64,000 nt of DNA, from the NCBI RefSeq assembly GCF_016775155.1, contig NZ_JAEUGD010000067.1, forward strand, positions 233,622-297,621. Reading direction: 5' to 3'. Source of the DNA: Fulvivirga marina (GTDB lineage: Bacteria > Bacteroidota > Bacteroidia > Cytophagales > Cyclobacteriaceae). Positions 52,747 through 61,434 of this stretch are shown one piece after another (positions within the stretch are counted from its first letter, which is position 1; the number at the start of each line of letters is the position of its first letter). Both the position numbers and the translations under genes were made by a program. Below the pieces are notes generated by a model. The model saw only the letters and a list, made by a program, of their open reading frames with translations. It did no database searches and was not told the origin of the DNA.

Positions 52747-54459
52747 TTACGCAACCATATCTTCTTCGTCCTTAGCCAATTCACCTGTAATGGCCTCCGA
52801 CACATTGATTATATGATCCCCTACACGCTCAATCAGGTTATATAGATCAGAGTAGACAATACCACTCATGATATCATAATCACCTTTTTCAATATTTTTG
52901 AGATGTTTCTTTCTAAGTCTGTCGCGCTTTTTATTAATAGCAGCCTCATGTTCAATAGCAACGTTAAGGTTTACCTGATCATATTCCATACTGAGATTAG
53001 TGATCATTACCTTAAACGCATCATCGATAAGCTCTAGCATCTCCTGCAAATTCTTGATCTGACGCTCAGAGAACCATGCATCGCTTTCATTTTTTCTTTC
53101 AACAGCCAGCGACATTTGGAAGAATAGATCACCTATCCTTTCCAAGTCATTGATAATTGACAACATTCCTCGAAGTCTCAGAGAAGACTCGCTACTTAAG
53201 TTGGAGGTCGAAACCTTAGACAAGTAGTCAGCTATCTCCAGTTCTACTCTATCCGTAATTTCTTCATACTTCTTGATGCGCTTCATCAGCTTAGTCCTCG
53301 CCTTCATTTTCCTCTTTTCAATCAGAGTCTGTACAAAACCAGACATCCTTGAAGTAAGCTCGGCAAATTTTGCAATTTCCTTTCCAGCCTCCTCCAGGGA
53401 TATTTCAGGGGTAGCCATAATTGGTGTACTAATGTACTCCAGTCGAAACTCTTCATCTTCACCTTTAGAACTCACATACTTGATCACCACTTCCGAAATC
53501 TGTTTAACAAAGCCTACCAAAAGCAACACATTAATAATATTAAATACTGAATGGAATATCGACAAAGCAACTGGCACCGCTTCCGGAGTATCAAATGGAG
53601 AAACATTATGATACTTTACCATATAAGCATCTATGCCATTAAGGAATAACGGAAATGCCAGCAACATCCACAATACACCAAATATGTTAAATATAAAATG
53701 TGCTCGTGCTGCTCTTTTAGCATGAATATTACCCACCAATGCAGCTATATTGGCTGTTATAGTAGTTCCTATATTTTCTCCCAGTACCATGGCTGCTGCA
53801 AGATCAAAAGATATCCACCCTTGGTTAGCCATAACTAGGGTAAGTGCCATACTGGCACTTGACGATTGTACTACAACAGTTAATATGGTACCAATAGCAA
53901 TAAACAATAGAGTAGAAAAAATACCCGCGTCGGTGTAGCTACTTAAAAACTCCAGTACCTGTGGGTTTGACTTTAAATCAGGTACCGCACTTTTCAATGC
54001 CTCTAATCCCATAAATAATAAAGCAAAACCGATAATAACCTCGCCCCATGACTTCCAGCGGTTCTTAGAAGAGAATAATAGAGGAAATCCAAAAGCGATA
54101 ATAGGGAGAGCTACGGCAGCGATCTTCACCTTGAACCCTACTATCGATATGATCCAGGCTGTTATTGTAGTTCCTATATTAGCTCCCATTATGACGCCTA
54201 TAGACTCCACCAGAGAAAGTAAGCCAGCATTAACAAAGCTCACTACCATAACCGTTGTGGCTGAAGAGGACTGAACAAGTGAGGTAAGTAAAAACCCGGT
54301 TATTACCCCCATAAACCGGTTTGAGGTCATTGCCCGAAGTATCTGTCGCATTCTGCCACCAGCTACTTTCTGTATGCCCTCACTCATAACTTTCATCCCA
54401 TAGATAAAAAAACCAAGGGAACCTACCAGGGTGAGGACATCAAAGAAATCAAATTTCAT
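52747..54459 (-). CDS. Na+/phosphate cotransporter with PhoU-like C-terminal domain
   Basis: 570 aa. Two inverted NptA-type membrane repeats with the QSSSATT/QSSSAS signature (LVQSSSATTVMVVSFVNAG near 65 and VVQSSSASMALTLVMANQGW near 205), about eight to ten transmembrane helices up to residue 330; then a PhoU-like helical domain (residues about 370-560, SLRLRGMLSIINDLERIGDL). Takes up phosphate with sodium, and the PhoU-like part may regulate it. Divergent from pstS; no Pho box was found on its own side. Confidence 0.93.
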   Translation of the reverse strand: MKFDFFDVLTLVGSLGFFIYGMKVMSEGIQKVAGGRMRQILRAMTSNRFMGVITGFLLTSLVQSSSATTVMVVSFVNAGLLSLVESIGVIMGANIGTTITAWIISIVGFKVKIAAVALPIIAFGFPLLFSSKNRWKSWGEVIIGFALLFMGLEALKSAVPDLKSNPQVLEFLSSYTDAGIFSTLLFIAIGTILTVVVQSSSASMALTLVMANQGWISFDLAAAMVLGENIGTTITANIAALVGNIHAKRAARAHFIFNIFGVLWMLLAFPLFLNGIDAYMVKYHNVSPFDTPEAVPVALSIFHSVFNIINVLLLVGFVKQISEVVIKYVSSKGEDEEFRLEYISTPIMATPEISLEEAGKEIAKFAELTSRMSGFVQTLIEKRKMKARTKLMKRIKKYEEITDRVELEIADYLSKVSTSNLSSESSLRLRGMLSIINDLERIGDLFFQMSLAVERKNESDAWFSERQIKNLQEMLELIDDAFKVMITNLSMEYDQVNLNVAIEHEAAINKKRDRLRKKHLKNIEKGDYDIMSGIVYSDLYNLIERVGDHIINVSEAITGELAKDEEDMVA

Positions 54460-54586: not shown

Positions 54587-54614
54587 TTAACATAAACTTA
54601 ACATTAACTTAACA
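54587..54614 (+). promoter_or_regulatory. Pho box: three TTAACA repeats upstream of pstS
   Basis: TTAACA occurs at 54587, 54598 and 54609, exactly 11 bases apart, and the five spacer bases end in AAC in both gaps. This matches the Bacillus PhoP box (TTAACA-N5-TTAACA) and resembles the 11-bp periodicity of the E. coli PhoB box. It lies directly upstream of the pstS promoter. The responding regulator is not encoded in this window. Confidence 0.8.
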
Positions 54615-54624
54615 TCAAATATCC

Positions 54625-54653
54625 TTGACGCAATGGGCTTAAGGGTAATTTTG
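54625..54653 (+). promoter_or_regulatory. pstS promoter: -33 TTG and -7 TAATTTTG
   Basis: TTG at 54625-54627, 18 bases, then TAATTTTG (54646-54653), fitting TTG-N17-23-TAnnTTTG. It ends 23 bases before the pstS ATG and begins 31 bases after the third TTAACA repeat. Confidence 0.7.
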
Positions 54654-54676
54654 CAGAAATTTTAAATAAAAAAAGC

Positions 54677-55645
54677 ATGAAATTCAAGGCAAATTTAATC
54701 CTTATTCTATTTGCAGGAAGCTTCTTAATTTCTTCTTGTGGCCAAAAATCATCTGATTCAAATGATTCAAAATCTGAAAATCAAATTGAGGGAGAAGTAA
54801 AAATTGATGGTTCAAGCACCGTTTATCCTATCACTGAAGCTGTTGCTGAAGAATTTAGAGCCGAACAACCAGACATTCAGGTAACTGTAGGAGTTTCAGG
54901 AACTGGAGGTGGCTTCAAAAAGTTTTGCCGTGGCGAAATTGACATTAATGATGCTTCAAGACCAATAAAGGATAAGGAAAAAACAGCTTGTTCAGGCGAG
55001 AACATAGATTTCGTTGAGCTAACTGTTGCTTATGATGGATTAGCAGTTGTAATTAACCCTGAAAACGACTGGGTTGACCACTTTACTGTTGAAGAGCTTA
55101 AAAAAATATGGGAACCTGCTGCACAGGGAGCAATAACAAAGTGGAGCCAAATCAGACCTGAGTGGCCAGATGAAGAATTTAGCCTTTACGGTCCTGGTGT
55201 TGCTTCAGGAACTTACGATTACTTTACTGAAGCTATCGTTGGAGAAAGTGGCGCTAGCAGAGGTGATTATACTGCAAGTGAAGACGATAATGTTTTGGTT
55301 CAGGGAATTGCCGGGGACAAAAATGCTATTGGGTTCTTTGGACTTGCATACTTCGAAGAAAACCAGGACAAATTGAAACTCATAGCTGTAAAACATGAAG
55401 GCGAGCCTGTATTACCATCTTTGGAAACTGTAAAGAGTGGTGAATACGCTCCTCTTTCAAGACCTATCTTCATATATATTAACAGAGGAGCAGCTGACAG
55501 ACCCGCCGTGAAAGCTTTTGTAGACTTCTACCTTGAAGTGGCTCCGGAACTAGTTCAGGATGTAGGGTACATTCCCCTTCCGAATGAAGAGTATCAAAAA
55601 GAAAAATCCGAGTTTGAAAGCTTTGTTCAAACAGCAAAACAATAA
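54677..55645 (+). CDS. pstS: Phosphate ABC transporter substrate-binding protein PstS
   Basis: 322 aa. Lipoprotein signal ([20 protein letters not shown], Cys21). PBP fold with phosphate-contacting loops [15 protein letters not shown] and [20 protein letters not shown], then [14 protein letters not shown]. It binds phosphate in the periplasm for PstCAB. First gene of the pst operon, directly under the Pho box promoter. Confidence 0.95.
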
Positions 55646-55657
55646 ATTATTGAATTG

Positions 55658-55679
55658 TGCCAGGTGTCAAAGCCTGGCA
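55658..55679 (+). promoter_or_regulatory. Hairpin between pstS and pstC
   Basis: TGCCAGG / CCTGGCA stem with an eight-base loop, in the 51-base gap between stop and start. There is little T after it, so it may stabilise the pstS message or partly attenuate downstream genes rather than stop transcription. Confidence 0.55.
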
Positions 55680-55696
55680 TATTACTTTAAGCTATT

Positions 55697-56575
55697 TTGA
55701 AAAATACTGGAGAAAAAATTATTGAGGGCGCTTTAGCATTTAGCGGCCTCATTACCATTCTCACTACGTTAGGAATTATCTGGGTACTGGTCTCTGAATC
55801 ATTCAGTTTCTTTCAGGTAGTGTCGGTTTCAGACTTTATTACAGACACAGAATGGACTCCCCTATTTACCCAAAAACATTATGGGATACTACCACTTCTT
55901 GCAGGAACATTTCTCACCACGGCAATTGCAATTCTTACTGCAATGCCTATTGGAATTTCCATTGCGGTATATTTAAGTGAGTATGCTCCCAAAAATTTCC
56001 GAAAAAGCATAAAACCTGCGCTCGAAGTGCTTGCTGCCGTACCTACTGTAGTTTACGGTTTTTTTGCGCTAACTGTAGTAACTCCTTTTTTGCAAAGCAT
56101 TATTCCAGGTTTAGGTAGTTTTAATGCGTTATCAGCGGGTCTTGTTATGGGAATTATGATTATTCCAATGATCTCATCCCTTAGCGAAGATGCGCTACAC
56201 TCACTACCGAAATCACTTCGTGAAGCCTCATATGGTATGGGAGCTACTCGATTCCAAACGGCATTTAAAGTGGCCGTACCGGCAGCATCATCAGGCATCA
56301 TTGTTTCAATCATTCTGGCTATAGCCCGTGCAATAGGAGAAACTATGATTGTAGCCATTGCTGCAGGTCAACAACCCATTCTAACCCTGGATCCAAGAGA
56401 TGCTGTTGAAACCATTACTGCATATATTGTTCAGGTAAGCCTAGGGGATGTTCCTCACGGGTCACTTGCATACAAAACCATATTTGCAGCAGGTATTACA
56501 TTATTTATTTTCACATTTATCCTTAATAACATCAGTTTCTGGATAAAGAAAAAATACCAGGAAAAGTATGACTAA
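55697..56575 (+). CDS. pstC: Phosphate ABC transporter permease PstC
   Basis: 292 aa, starting at TTG 55697; the in-frame TAA just upstream (55688) excludes an earlier start, and the next ATG is far inside the membrane domain. Six transmembrane helices; the cytoplasmic EAA loop EASYGMGATRFQTAFKVAVP contacts PstB. Its end overlaps pstA by eight bases. Confidence 0.93.
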   Translation: MKNTGEKIIEGALAFSGLITILTTLGIIWVLVSESFSFFQVVSVSDFITDTEWTPLFTQKHYGILPLLAGTFLTTAIAILTAMPIGISIAVYLSEYAPKNFRKSIKPALEVLAAVPTVVYGFFALTVVTPFLQSIIPGLGSFNALSAGLVMGIMIIPMISSLSEDALHSLPKSLREASYGMGATRFQTAFKVAVPAASSGIIVSIILAIARAIGETMIVAIAAGQQPILTLDPRDAVETITAYIVQVSLGDVPHGSLAYKTIFAAGITLFIFTFILNNISFWIKKKYQEKYD

Positions 56576-57425
56576 GCTTAAGCAAAACAGGATCATAGAC
56601 TCCACTTTTAAATACTTCGGCATTTTCTGCACGTTTTTTGGGTTGATAGTTCTGGCAATATTTATTTTTAATATTCTTACAGAAGGTGTTCAACGCATCA
56701 ATTGGGACTTCCTTAGCAATCTACCTTCACGAAGGCCAGCCAAAGCAGGTATATTAACAGCATGGACAGGTACAGCATGGATACTAGGTCTAACGGCAAT
56801 CATTTCGATACCTCTTGGTGTGGCAGCCGGTGTTTACTTGGAAGAGTACGGTAAAAAGAACAGGCTTGCATCAATCATTGAAATCAATATTGCCAACCTG
56901 GCCGGTGTTCCTTCTATCATTTATGGCCTGCTTGGTCTCGAAATCTTCGTAAGAACATTGAACTTTGGAGGCAGCCTGCTTGCCGGTGCTTTTACACTAG
57001 CATTACTTATATTACCTATTATTATTGTAGCCACCAGAGAAGCTCTTAAAGCTGTTCCTAAATCTTTGAGAGAAGCGTCTTTTGGAATGGGGGCAACCAA
57101 ATGGCAAACCATATGGTACCAGACACTTCCTGCTGCTTCAGGAGGCATTTTAACAGGGATCATCCTGGCCCTTTCTCGAGCTGTTGGAGAAACTGCCCCA
57201 TTGATTGTGATTGGTGCACTCGCCTACGTTCCTTTTGTGGCCTCAACCCCCATGGACGAGTTTACAGTGCTGCCCATGCAAATATTTAACTGGGTATCCA
57301 GACCGCAGCATGGGTTTGTCATCAATGCCGCAGCAGCAATTATTATTTTATTACTTATTACCTTTATAATGAATGGAATAGCTATTTATTTACGTAATAA
57401 ATGGCAGAAAAAAGTAAACTGGTAA
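56568..57425 (+). CDS. pstA: Phosphate ABC transporter permease PstA
   Basis: 285 aa, six transmembrane helices, EAA loop EASFGMGATKWQTIWYQTLP. Translationally coupled to pstC by an eight-base overlap and followed after 15 bases by pstB. Confidence 0.94.
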   Translation: MTKLKQNRIIDSTFKYFGIFCTFFGLIVLAIFIFNILTEGVQRINWDFLSNLPSRRPAKAGILTAWTGTAWILGLTAIISIPLGVAAGVYLEEYGKKNRLASIIEINIANLAGVPSIIYGLLGLEIFVRTLNFGGSLLAGAFTLALLILPIIIVATREALKAVPKSLREASFGMGATKWQTIWYQTLPAASGGILTGIILALSRAVGETAPLIVIGALAYVPFVASTPMDEFTVLPMQIFNWVSRPQHGFVINAAAAIIILLLITFIMNGIAIYLRNKWQKKVNW

Positions 57426-57440
57426 GTTTATATTATAAGA

Positions 57441-58193
57441 ATGAAACATATTGAAGCAAATAATGTCAACGCTTATTATGGCGAAAACCATGTGTTGAAA
57501 GATATTTCCCTGACTATGAAAGCTAATACGGTAACGGCATTCATTGGCCCTTCCGGCTGTGGAAAATCTACATTCCTACGTTGCCTTAACCGCATGAATG
57601 ATTACATAGACGGATTCAGAAAAGAAGGTGATATTTTTATTGAAGGAAATGATATTTATGATAAAAAGGTCAGAGTTGAAGAGCTAAGGCAAAAGGTGGG
57701 TATGGTATTCCAAAAGCCAAATCCATTCCCTAAAACAATTTTCGAGAACGTTGCTTACGGATTGAAAATACAAGGGATCAAAAACAAAAATATATTGGAA
57801 GAAGCAGTGGAACGCTCTCTACAACAGGCCGCTCTATGGAATGAGGTAAAAGACTCTCTGCATAAGTCTGCACTTTCACTGTCAGGCGGACAGCAACAAA
57901 GAGTATGTATAGCCCGAGCATTAGCGGTAGAACCTTCAACCCTTCTTATGGATGAGCCTGCTTCTGCCCTCGACCCTATTTCAACGGCCAAGATCGAAGA
58001 TCTTATTGCAGAGTTAAAAGACAACTATACCATAGTAATTGTAACTCACAATATGCAACAGGCTGCAAGGGTAAGTGATAAAACAGCTTTCTTTTATATG
58101 GGTAACCTCATAGAATACGACAAAACAAAAGAGTTATTTACGAACCCTAAAAATGAGAGAACAGAAAACTACATCACAGGAAGATTTGGGTAA
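57441..58193 (+). CDS. pstB: Phosphate ABC transporter ATPase PstB
   Basis: 250 aa. Walker [10 protein letters not shown] (33-41), PstB-type Q-loop ([12 protein letters not shown]), signature LSGGQQQR, Walker [14 protein letters not shown]-loop IVTHNMQQA. Couples ATP hydrolysis to phosphate import through PstCA. Confidence 0.97.
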
Positions 58194-58249
58194 AAAGAAC
58201 CACCTCAGTTAAACTCATTTAAAACACAATACCTATACGCTACAGACAT

Positions 58250-58924
58250 ATGTCACATTTAGATCCGGAAATAGACTCATTAAAGAACACGCTCCTTGAA
58301 ATGTTGGAGCTGGTAACATCACAATTGGTTAAATGCAAAGAAGCTACTTTTGATGCGGACGCTGACTTAGCCAAAGAGGTGATCTCCATGGAAAAAAGAG
58401 TAAACTCACTTGAACTTGCCATAGACAAACGATGTGAGAACATTTTGGCACTCTACAATCCCGTGGCAACAGATCTGCGTTTTGTACTGGCCGCTTTTAA
58501 AATAAGCAATGACCTGGAGCGTATAGGCGATAATGCTGAGGGTATTGCCAACTTCCTCTTTGATGTTATGGAAAAAGCTGAAGACGACATGATTGAAAAA
58601 TTTAAGCTCAACATGATGTACGATGTGACTATTTCCATGCTTCATGACATGGAAGAGGCAATGGAGAATGAGGATACTAAGCTAGCCAGAAAGATCTTCA
58701 AAAAGGATGATCAATTGAATGAGAATAACAAAAATGCATCAAAAACTGCTGCAGAACTTATAGAGAAATACCCTAATAAAATAAAGCTCATCCTTAAACT
58801 TTTCTCGATAGTAAGAAAGTTAGAGCGTGTAGGTGATTTGACAAAGAACGTTGGGGAAGAACTTATTTTTCACATCGAAGCCAAAGTCCTTAAACATAAA
58901 AAGGACCAGAAAAAGAAAAAGTAA
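58250..58924 (+). CDS. phoU: Phosphate signalling protein PhoU
   Basis: 224 aa, two three-helix bundles with the metal-binding repeats (NDLERIGDNAEGIAN and VRKLERVGDLTKNVGEE). PhoU links PstSCAB to the histidine kinase and lowers pho expression when phosphate is plentiful. It ends the pst operon; a terminator follows. No phoR/phoB genes are in the window. Confidence 0.95.
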   Translation: MSHLDPEIDSLKNTLLEMLELVTSQLVKCKEATFDADADLAKEVISMEKRVNSLELAIDKRCENILALYNPVATDLRFVLAAFKISNDLERIGDNAEGIANFLFDVMEKAEDDMIEKFKLNMMYDVTISMLHDMEEAMENEDTKLARKIFKKDDQLNENNKNASKTAAELIEKYPNKIKLILKLFSIVRKLERVGDLTKNVGEELIFHIEAKVLKHKKDQKKKK

Positions 58925-58954
58925 CCTGTTATCTAAGGTACATGAGCGAATTTA

Positions 58955-58989
58955 AAAGACCAGCCTCATTAATTATGTTGCTGGTCTTT
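58955..58989 (+). terminator. Terminator after phoU
   Basis: AAAGACCAGC (58955-58964) pairs with GCTGGTCTTT (58980-58989), then CAATTCTT. Confidence 0.75.
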
Positions 58990-59015
58990 CAATTCTTAGA
59001 TAAGATGCTGAATAC

Positions 59016-59032
59016 TTAACAATTAATTAACC
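59016..59032 (+). promoter_or_regulatory. Pho box: two TTAAC repeats upstream of the second Na/Pi cotransporter
   Basis: TTAACA (59016-59021) and TTAACC (59027-59032), spaced by 11 bases as in the pstS box. The distance to the TAnnTTTG element (59064) is the same as in pstS: last repeat end to TA is 32 positions in both. Confidence 0.75.
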
Positions 59033-59063
59033 TACAGGAAATATATAGGATTTATAATAAACC

Positions 59064-59071
59064 TACCTTTG
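59064..59071 (+). promoter_or_regulatory. -7 element of the second Na/Pi cotransporter
   Basis: TACCTTTG matches TAnnTTTG. No TTG at -33, as expected for an activator-dependent promoter. Confidence 0.6.
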
Positions 59072-60282: not shown

Positions 60283-61434
60283 ATGAACAAGTTAAAATAT
60301 GTTCTACTAGCATTATTTATTTTCCCTTTATTATCCTATGCTCAGGATACAACTTCTAACAGCTTTGGAAAAGGGATAAAGATTGCAGCTAAAGATTCTT
60401 CTTTCTACATGAAATTTAGCACCAGGTTTCAAACACTATATGATGGAAACCTAAACCTTGAAACAGACGAATGGACTGACAAGATGCTGATCAGAAGAGC
60501 CCGACTTAAGTTTGAAGGGTTCGCCTACGATCCCAGGCTTGAATACAAAGTAGAATTAGCCATTAGTAACCGCGATAATGGGAAAATTAATGCAGAATCA
60601 AATCTTGCAGCAAACATTGTACTTGATGCGGTATTAAAGTATCAATTTGCCCCAGGCTGGGAAGTTTGGTTTGGACAAACAAAACTACCTGGCAACAGAG
60701 AGCGTGTAATATCTTCTCAAAAACTACAGTTTGTTGACCGTAGCCAGGTAAACTCCAAATATAATATTGATAGGGGCCAAGGTATACAGATACACCATGA
60801 GCACAATGTAGGTAATGCTGTTTTGAGAGAGATTGGGTCAATTTCCATGGGAGAAGGAAGGAACCTTACCATCGACAACATTGGTGGTTATGAATATACC
60901 GGAAGGGTAGAATATTTACCCTTTGGTAAATTCGCCAGCAGCGGAGACTATTTTGGGTCCGATCTTAAAAGAGAAAGTACCCCTAAACTGTCTATAGGCG
61001 TTACTTACGATCAGAACAACAACGCCCCTCGTGAACGTGGCTTTGCAGGAGACTTCTTGAGCGAACACCATGACCTTAAGACATACTTTGTAGATGCTAT
61101 GTTTAAATACCAAGGTTTTTCCGGCATGTTTGAGTATGCTAACAAAAGAACAGATGGCTCTCCGGTCACTTCCGAAGGAGCCTTTTATACTGGTACAGGT
61201 GTAAACTTCCAGATGGGATATTTATTCCAAAATAACTTCGAAATAGCCGGTCGCTATACAGACATAACTCCTGAAAAAGTTACAGGCTACGAAGGCATAA
61301 CTGAATTAACACTAGGTGTTTCAAAATATTTTGTAGGCCATAGCTTAAAAATTCAAAGCGACTTATCGCATGTAGATAATGAATTTAGCGATAACGAATT
61401 GAGATACCGCTTTCAGGTGGAGTTGGCCTTCTAA
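60283..61434 (+). CDS. Phosphate-selective porin (OprO/OprP family)
   Basis: 383 aa; signal peptide to about residue 21 (LLSYAQD). Sixteen-strand porin pattern with FYMKFSTRFQTLYDGNLNLE, MLIRRARLKFEGFAYDPRLE, GWEVWFGQTKLPGNRERVIS (the typical central region) and a C-terminal strand ending RYRFQVELAF with final Phe. It lets phosphate or polyphosphate cross the outer membrane. Part of the Pho-controlled unit. A 15-base direct repeat (60246-60280) lies in front of it. Confidence 0.92.
   Translation: MNKLKYVLLALFIFPLLSYAQDTTSNSFGKGIKIAAKDSSFYMKFSTRFQTLYDGNLNLETDEWTDKMLIRRARLKFEGFAYDPRLEYKVELAISNRDNGKINAESNLAANIVLDAVLKYQFAPGWEVWFGQTKLPGNRERVISSQKLQFVDRSQVNSKYNIDRGQGIQIHHEHNVGNAVLREIGSISMGEGRNLTIDNIGGYEYTGRVEYLPFGKFASSGDYFGSDLKRESTPKLSIGVTYDQNNNAPRERGFAGDFLSEHHDLKTYFVDAMFKYQGFSGMFEYANKRTDGSPVTSEGAFYTGTGVNFQMGYLFQNNFEIAGRYTDITPEKVTGYEGITELTLGVSKYFVGHSLKIQSDLSHVDNEFSDNELRYRFQVELAF

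Follow-up and report, generated by a model that had tools for sequence, protein, structure and literature searches.

The pst locus and its two repeat boxes

The subject of this analysis is a stretch of 64,000 nucleotides of Fulvivirga marina (contig NZ_JAEUGD010000067.1; the whole stretch is called the window below, and its first letter is position 1), in which the pstSCAB-phoU operon and the gene of a second Na/Pi cotransporter are each preceded by direct repeats of the hexamer TTAACA. The first of these elements, Pho box 1 (54587..54614, forward strand), lies before pstS and consists of three head-to-tail units with a period of 11 base pairs (bp), read directly as TTAACA at 54587-54592, 54598-54603 and 54609-54614. 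Pho box 2 (59016..59032, forward strand) lies before the second Na/Pi transporter and has the form TTAACA-N5-TTAACC, with TTAACA at 59016-59021 and TTAACC at 59027-59032 by direct reading. Each box is followed by a -7 element of the type TAnnTTTG, a consensus placed at -12 to -5 in the available text of PMC9723704; direct reading gives TAATTTTG in the pstS promoter (54646..54653, forward strand) and TACCTTTG in the second promoter (59064..59071, forward strand). A possible -33 element, TTG (54625..54627, forward strand), stands 21 positions before the TA of the pstS -7 element. Let d be the distance counted from the final base of a box to the T with which TAnnTTTG begins; d is 32 at both promoters (54614 to 54646; 59032 to 59064). 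The repeats with their 11-bp period and the equal spacing, both claimed in a preliminary description of this DNA, are thus found exactly as described.

The operon downstream of box 1 runs on the forward strand and comprises pstS (54677..55645; phosphate-binding protein, PBP_like_2), pstC (55697..56575; permease, with a TIGR02138 match that is above the cut-off here), pstA (56568..57425; permease, named by gene order), pstB (57441..58193; ATPase) and phoU (58250..58924; PF01895). Box 2 is followed on the same strand by the second Na/Pi cotransporter gene (PF02690; 59100..60233), whose start codon is uncertain (TTG as listed), and by a gene of the phosphate-selective porin family Porin_O_P (60283..61434), possibly on one transcript with it; the same gene order is found in L183-L185. 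Divergent from pstS, on the reverse strand, lies the first Na/Pi cotransporter gene, which carries a PhoU domain (52747..54459), and homologues of it have a box of their own at L171, L198, L201 and L202.

The combination of repeat and promoter is rare in the window. A search for TTAAC-N6-TTAAC followed by TAnnTTTG within the searched gap returned exactly two matches, which are boxes 1 and 2, and 100 dinucleotide shuffles of the window gave a mean of 0.00. The bare pair, with one mismatch allowed, gave five matches in the window against 2.69 expected, and 17 of the 100 shuffles reached five. Across the whole genome of 6.78 Mb there were 34 bare pairs and 27 matches of the reversed control, which is near chance; among the 30 of these 34 sites whose loci were fetched, 16 were intergenic by a simple ORF (open reading frame) call. 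The preliminary description had named, as what would speak against it, repeats equally frequent elsewhere; since the bare pair is about as frequent as its reversed control, this applies to the bare repeat, which was rejected as a genome-wide marker, and it ceases to apply once the promoter register is included. Near-chance frequency, together with the AT-richness of both TTAA and promoters, is also what favours the view that the repeats only look like a Pho box and are in fact AT-rich, UP-like sequence or tandem repeats arisen by chance, a view taken up again below with the class-wide data.

When looser units and a range of spacings were allowed, the F. marina genome gave ten matches against five for the reversed pattern, and d=32 occurred only in the two window promoters (spacings derived by hand from match lengths). 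The other eight matches have d from 26 to 38 and are not claimed as members; one of them, at d=33, is followed by the gene of a permease (L033), NhaD-like as judged by eye, and is likewise not claimed.

Conservation and promoter register in Bacteroidia

Within the genus, the closest named relative of PstS is that of Fulvivirga kasyanovii (92%), and a PstS at least 80% identical is present in four of 15 genomes (own, G001, G002 and G014; the own genome is counted in both numbers). Both promoters, with the pair and with d=32, are found in all four; for box 2, the loci in the three genomes other than the own are L183-L185. By fixing d at 32 and allowing up to two mismatches in the four genomes, 16 matches were obtained, in comparison with 10 for the reversed pattern, and all seven matches with at most one mismatch were the two phosphate promoters. 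The TTG of the -33 element is present in L042 and L043 and absent from L044, L045 and L047 (by eye).

For the class-wide test, loci were picked by protein, the box not being used in the choice, and a strict definition was applied, namely a TTAA(C/T) pair 11 bp apart within 200 bp upstream. Such a pair was found before 15 of 20 pstS, 14 of 30 DUF47 and 6 of 30 phoB genes, versus 3 of 37 other ORFs of the same loci (Fisher p against these control ORFs, 4e-7 for pstS and 4e-4 for DUF47). Not included in the pstS set are eleven distant PstS rows (L051-L061, 21-30% identical) and loci that were duplicates or truncated, and the four same-genus pstS in it are not independent of each other. For DUF47 and phoB the best-scoring 30 loci each were taken, which are not random samples, and one PhoB locus was too short and was dropped. 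The preliminary description had named a lack of conservation before pstS orthologues as what would speak against it; by these counts, the repeats are conserved before many of them.

The period itself emerges from a scored search. With 11 or more of the 12 letters required to match, an offset of 11 was found upstream of 44 of 89 DUF47 genes and an offset of 22, which is two periods, in 9, while the other offsets from 7 to 21 gave 0-5 each; on the opposite strand, offset 11 gave 17. This set comprised 95 listed rows, of which five were not fetched, and one of the 90 loci was without an ORF. A second pstS set gave offset 11 in 9 of 17, versus 0-2 at other offsets, 13 of 30 pstC loci having yielded no usable pstS upstream region. 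Head-to-tail units at an 11-bp period are therefore confirmed, with enrichment at offset 11 only (22 as two periods aside), and the DUF47 boxes occur in many families. In four genomes of one genus (g132; L279, L283, L285 and L287) the repeats upstream of DUF47 seem by eye to lie on the opposite strand, as TTAAGGAAT...TTAAG, which suggests that the orientation of the box can flip.

Box and core promoter stand in a fixed register, which is multimodal (about 10, 21 and 32) and not one distance. Measured to the TTTG core, d was 32 in nine pstS loci, 21 in two and 43 in one (L045 also has a second TTTG, at 42); it was 20, 21 or 22 in all 12 DUF47 rows and 21 and 22 for phoB, and the controls gave a single 42. 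Promoter variants were seen at the same step, TTACTTTG in one Cytophagales locus and TTnnTTTG or AATCTTTG at some DUF47 genes. The single fixed distance proposed in the preliminary description holds in the four genomes of the genus and in nine of the 12 pstS loci where a box is accompanied by a TTTG core within range, and gives way across the class to steps of about 11 bp (10, 21, 32 and occasionally 43).

Scans that started from the motif gave the same picture. The pattern TTAACA-N5-TTAACA-N{11,41}-TAnnTTTG had 108 matches in 88 of 295 Bacteroidia genomes, against 16 for the reversed pattern (columns added by hand) and 20 for a decoy with a 12-bp period. Among the 108, d was 20-23 in 63, 31-33 in 24 and 24-30 in 4; after similar sequences had been merged, 93 remained, with d of 20-22 in 46 and 31-33 in 23, and even these include non-independent samples from related genomes. 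A scan at short spacing gave 24 matches versus 4 for the reversed pattern, five of the 24 being duplicates of matches in the 108-match scan, and d was 10 in 12 of them; the spacings of L351, L353, L356, L374, L380, L394 and L293 (d=10) were taken by hand from the sequence. In 98 genomes of the own family, TTAAC-N6-TTAAC had its commonest d at 22 (28 matches) and 32 (11 matches), as counted by eye, 22 being the lower edge of that scan. Off this lattice, d is 3 for the TTAACA pair and TAnnTTTG of a polyphosphate kinase-like gene (by eye; L429, G210:C7:144043).

An AT-rich or chance origin of the repeats is already contradicted by these data: the enrichment is confined to offset 11 and absent from 7-10 and 12-21, the 12-bp decoy yields 20 matches and the true period 108, the spacing to the promoter is multimodal, and boxes precede DUF47 genes in many families. 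It is accordingly regarded as highly improbable.

Downstream genes and a second box family

In total, 82 distinct in-register promoters were annotated, of which one (L271) was taken from the own-family scan; duplicates were merged, and near-identical promoters in G309 (two), G181 (one) and G135 (two) were left unannotated. The downstream genes were assigned by BLAST to a small reference set and by reading translations, with Pfam for eleven proteins from outside the window. Phosphate genes follow 26 of the promoters, the pstS of the window included: DUF47 in 10, PiT in 4, Na/Pi in 4, PiT-like in 3, PstS in 2, and Porin_O_P, PhoB and a SixA-like phosphatase in one each. The two PstS are that of the window and a 60-residue fragment assigned by eye, as was Porin_O_P. 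Among the 12 promoters with d=10, seven stand before DUF47 or PstS. Downstream of the other 56 are, besides unassigned genes, 15 genes of DUF1573, several for proteins of the DUF4369/thioredoxin-like kind, some for DoxX/MauE proteins and one for a MoxR-type ATPase.

The two sets differ around the shared hexamer. A C precedes the second unit in 17 of 26 phosphate promoters versus 7 of 56 others, a T precedes the first unit in 3 of 26 versus 26 of 56, and d is 22 in 14 of 16 DUF1573 boxes, while phosphate boxes have 20-21 in 15 of 26 and 32 in 6 of 26. Owing to these differences in flanks and in d, at least two box families appear to share one hexamer. Boxes of the second kind, with T before unit 1, A before unit 2 and d mostly 22, were seen at L180, L181, L182, L205, L207, L232, L250, L252, L254 and L257-L259, before DUF1573, DUF4369/thioredoxin-like and MoxR genes, and this family (DUF1573, thioredoxin-like, MoxR) is probably an RprY-type regulon. 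The window boxes depart from this type: their first unit is preceded by G or C, and d is 32. Units 2 and 3 of box 1 each follow a C; unit 2 of box 2 follows an A, as in the RprY type. As a second, look-alike family exists, the TTAACA hexamer alone does not mean phosphate, and searches for the repeats alone will mix phosphate and other regulons.

Further boxes were observed before genes of other kinds. In several genomes of the own family, a conserved protein of about 377 amino acids follows boxes at d=21-23, at L130 (1572-2702), L132, L134, L136, L167 and L168; that of L130 has a weak PHO4 match (20 bits versus a cut-off of 33.7) and is a candidate for a divergent phosphate transporter. Boxes at d=22 in GC-richer surroundings (L156, L157, L159, L140, L144, L146 and L151) precede a family of small secreted-looking proteins (KTITIVNGDTTISE or similar) and, at L151, a protein resembling a sigma factor (by eye).

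The existence of the second family raises an alternative, namely that the reader of boxes 1 and 2 is a different member of the OmpR family, most likely the RprY-like protein, which seems to use a nearly identical hexamer, and that the phosphate genes are a branch of an envelope/redox regulon. TTAACA pairs do occur in nearly the same geometry before DUF1573, DUF4369/thioredoxin-like and MoxR genes; the "PhoP" of Riemerella binds a conserved TTTAACA motif and shifts moxR promoter DNA, according to the available text of PMC9603813; and the own rprXY-like genes have a TTTAACATCTCATTAACA box next to them, beside the kinase gene of the pair (L191:3990). Two TTAA-repeat boxes are located between the rprXY-like operon and a divergent gene that looks by eye like a lipoprotein inorganic pyrophosphatase (L191:2638-4031; G000:C16, about 182.6-184.0 kb). 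Such a reader would, however, have to accommodate phosphate boxes that differ from the others in flanking bases and in d, and a d=10 class that belongs in its majority to DUF47 and PstS. The regulators themselves bear on the question as well.

The candidate regulator

The best PhoB-like protein of the F. marina genome is encoded at G000:C6:103273, with a PhoR-like kinase next to it, and PhoB is its best-scoring model. The kinase gene that follows (L190:4949-6007) has PnpS and PhoR as its best models, at 296.4 and 265.8 bits, below the cut-offs of 400 and 334.2. The PhoB-like family is present in 175 of 198 Bacteroidia genomes, and a PhoB-like gene lies within 5 kb of DUF47 in at least 10 genomes and of pstC in at least 8 (coordinates compared by eye, with no background rate). 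In one case (L266) a phoB-phoR-sixA-like-ppk cluster has a box at d=21.

The recognition helix of the own PhoB-like protein, RTVDVHIRKVREKI, is nearly the same as that of E. coli PhoB, RTVDVHIRRLRKAL. The DNA-contacting E. coli residues R193, T194, V197, H198, R200 and R203 are identical in the own protein and in seven other Bacteroidia PhoB-like proteins, and R201 is replaced by K. A second own PhoB-like protein (L111; G000:C63:169006-169620) has a changed recognition helix, RSVDTYITNLTQKI, and may be a paralogue that has lost the ability to read the box.

The own RprY-like regulator, for which RprY is the best model (268.9 against a cut-off of 370), has the recognition helix RSMDVFISKLRKYL, which differs from that of PhoB. 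This difference, and the position of phoB-like genes beside DUF47 and pstC in several genomes (the neighbourhood of rprY was not searched), add to the evidence against an RprY-like reader of boxes 1 and 2, which we therefore consider unlikely.

Interpretation

The boxes exist, they stand in register with TAnnTTTG, they are conserved at phosphate genes, and a PhoB-like/PhoR-like pair is encoded in the genome. Taken together, the class-wide register, the enrichment of offset 11 at phosphate genes and the PhoB-like candidate point to a Bacteroidota Pho box on an 11-bp lattice, and boxes 1 and 2 are very likely operators of PhoB, the phosphate-starvation activator of this phylum. The shared PhoB/PhoP-like box that the preliminary description postulated for the phylum is upheld before many pstS and other phosphate genes, in the TAnnTTTG register; box 2 was seen only within the genus.

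Several observations weigh against this assignment. A strict pair is absent from the 160 bp examined upstream of the second transporter's two orthologues found outside the genus (L186 and L188), and likewise from the upstream regions of 5 of the 20 pstS and 16 of the 30 DUF47 genes, and the control ORFs of that comparison are less AT-rich (GC 0.385 vs 0.30-0.33). Upstream stretches of pstC scored at least 11 in 5 of 30 cases, partly because pstS often lies between, which makes pstC a poor gene-first probe. The bare pair is near chance in the own genome, and 56 of the 82 promoters (15 DUF1573 and 41 other or unassigned) are not assigned to phosphate genes. The own regulator scores below curated cut-offs (229.5 of 296.2 bits for TIGR02154 and 215.2 of 270 bits for NF053854) and is for this reason called PhoB-like. 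No strict sense pair precedes its gene, and with 6 of 30 phoB genes showing one, autoregulation of phoB as a general rule was set aside as weak, although degenerate pairs, for example ATAAC-N6-TTAAC, can be made out by eye. Finally, among nine DUF47 genomes without a PhoB match, three have a box (score at least 11, either strand); two of these three are 56-67% complete and one 98%, and G298 and G311 were counted as lacking a match by elimination. By the same measure 53 of 80 DUF47 genes in genomes with PhoB have a box, so that an association of PhoB loss with box loss (3 of 9 versus 53 of 80; 1 of 7 without the two genomes below 70% completeness) is suggestive only.

If the boxes are PhoB operators, the following course of events may be proposed. 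At low phosphate, the PhoR-like kinase would phosphorylate PhoB, which would bind head-to-tail on 11-bp units of the consensus (c/g)TTAACAT, the expected operator form being (c/g)TTAACAT-N3-CTTAACAT at d of about 10, 21 or 32. Bound PhoB would then help RNA polymerase to start at the adjoining TAnnTTTG promoter, and the expression of pstSCAB-phoU and of the second Na/Pi transporter with the porin would be raised. In this proposal the own PhoB-like protein would be the reader, would be phosphorylated and would activate, and it may contact the sigma factor or the alpha subunit.

The three values of d, which lie on one lattice with a step equal to the unit length, lead to the proposal that RNA polymerase sets the phase of PhoB arrays, which may be shifted by whole protomers. 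The last unit of an array would end some 10, 21 or 32 positions short of TA, at sites that differ by one protomer. With d=32 it would span -49 to -44 and so lie immediately 5' of the -33 element (the TTG at 54625 in pstS); at d=21 it would lie at -38 to -33 and overlap the -33 element; and at d=10 it would come to lie approximately where the E. coli box does. In its general form, this proposal holds that OmpR-family activators of the phylum sit on an 11-bp lattice, with PhoB sliding by whole protomers and an RprY-like paralogue kept apart by its flanks and by d=22; for this broader idea we consider the case evenly balanced. If true, it would describe a promoter grammar in which the unit length of the operator is the permitted step of activator position, and an RNA polymerase that can be engaged from three stacked positions.

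Bacteroidota are abundant in the gut, in soil and in the sea. Mutant and omics studies have addressed their phosphate response; a search of the open-licence literature (titles and the starts of abstracts) found no operator or Pho box sequence for the phylum, although closed-access work may exist. The box and its register provide a searchable rule for Pho regulons in genomes that have not been studied. Moreover, the box is a cis-element whose geometry on the unusual TAnnTTTG promoter is strict, and it offers an entry to the question of how activators of the OmpR family engage this phylum's sigma factor. Less expected were the stepping of the register and the presence of a second regulon that looks alike.

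Comparison with known systems

The PhoP box of Bacillus subtilis has the consensus TTAACA-N5-TTAACA. Box 1 matches it exactly, box 2 deviates at its end (TTAACC), and the likeness extends to the 11-bp head-to-tail repetition at pst genes. The placement relative to a -10 TATAAT is not matched, however: TAnnTTTG takes the conserved step instead of a -35/-10 promoter, the boxes follow a 10/21/32 lattice before -7, and PhoB is the best model for the regulator. This resemblance invites the explanation that the pst operon came with its box from Bacillus-like bacteria, the box being a relic of that source. The distribution of PstS is indeed patchy (any match at 1e-10 in 18 of 58 genomes), ten PstS rows including the own one are at least 55% identical, and Paenibacillus PstS proteins reach 46-55% identity. 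Nevertheless, the best relatives of PstS are from Bacteroidota, the box is coupled to TAnnTTTG, and phosphate genes of unrelated kinds (DUF47, Na/Pi, PiT and porin) have it as well. Strict TTAAY pairs at 11 bp were found in 1 of 17 Paenibacillus/Bacillus pstS upstream regions, a count that understates their boxes, as inspection by eye shows TTAACA/TTTACA pairs 11 bp apart in these regions. Given the PstS relatives and this count, a Firmicutes origin of box and operon is not supported and seems a very remote prospect.

Within Bacteroidota, the available text of PMC3547664 reports that the PhoB of Bacteroides fragilis, which is of the same class as the one here, binds the pst promoter in vitro (electrophoretic mobility shift assay with a 512-bp fragment) and is needed for pstC expression; that text does not contain a box sequence. 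In Flavobacterium johnsoniae, phoB and many phosphate genes are raised on phosphate depletion, according to the accessible part of PMC8115612. The PhoP motif of Riemerella anatipestifer, from DNA affinity purification sequencing, has the core TTTAACA, thus the same hexamer core in the same class, with binding at moxR, in the portion of PMC9603813 at hand. Its targets there (moxR, the Bat operon and GLPGLI proteins) resemble the non-phosphate boxes described above, and the word pst is absent from that text; we infer that the Riemerella motif belongs to the second box family.

Among the boxes compared, that of cyanobacterial SphR is the closest in sequence. As given in the available text of PMC1906773, it reads CTTAACCT and has 8-bp units with 3-bp linkers, hence an 11-bp period, with two or three units at pst and phoA, and it is very close to the (c/g)TTAACAT unit found here; the boxes here differ from it by their strict promoter register and by the Bacteroidota type of promoter. 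The Pho box of E. coli PhoB, whose direct repeats lie 10 bp upstream of the -10 element in the available parts of PMC1906773 and PMC4415409, shares the 11-bp head-to-tail units and the nearly identical recognition helix, and its distance approximates that of the d=10 class. The sequence of its unit is different, and the more frequent classes of Bacteroidota box are placed farther upstream by one or two units.

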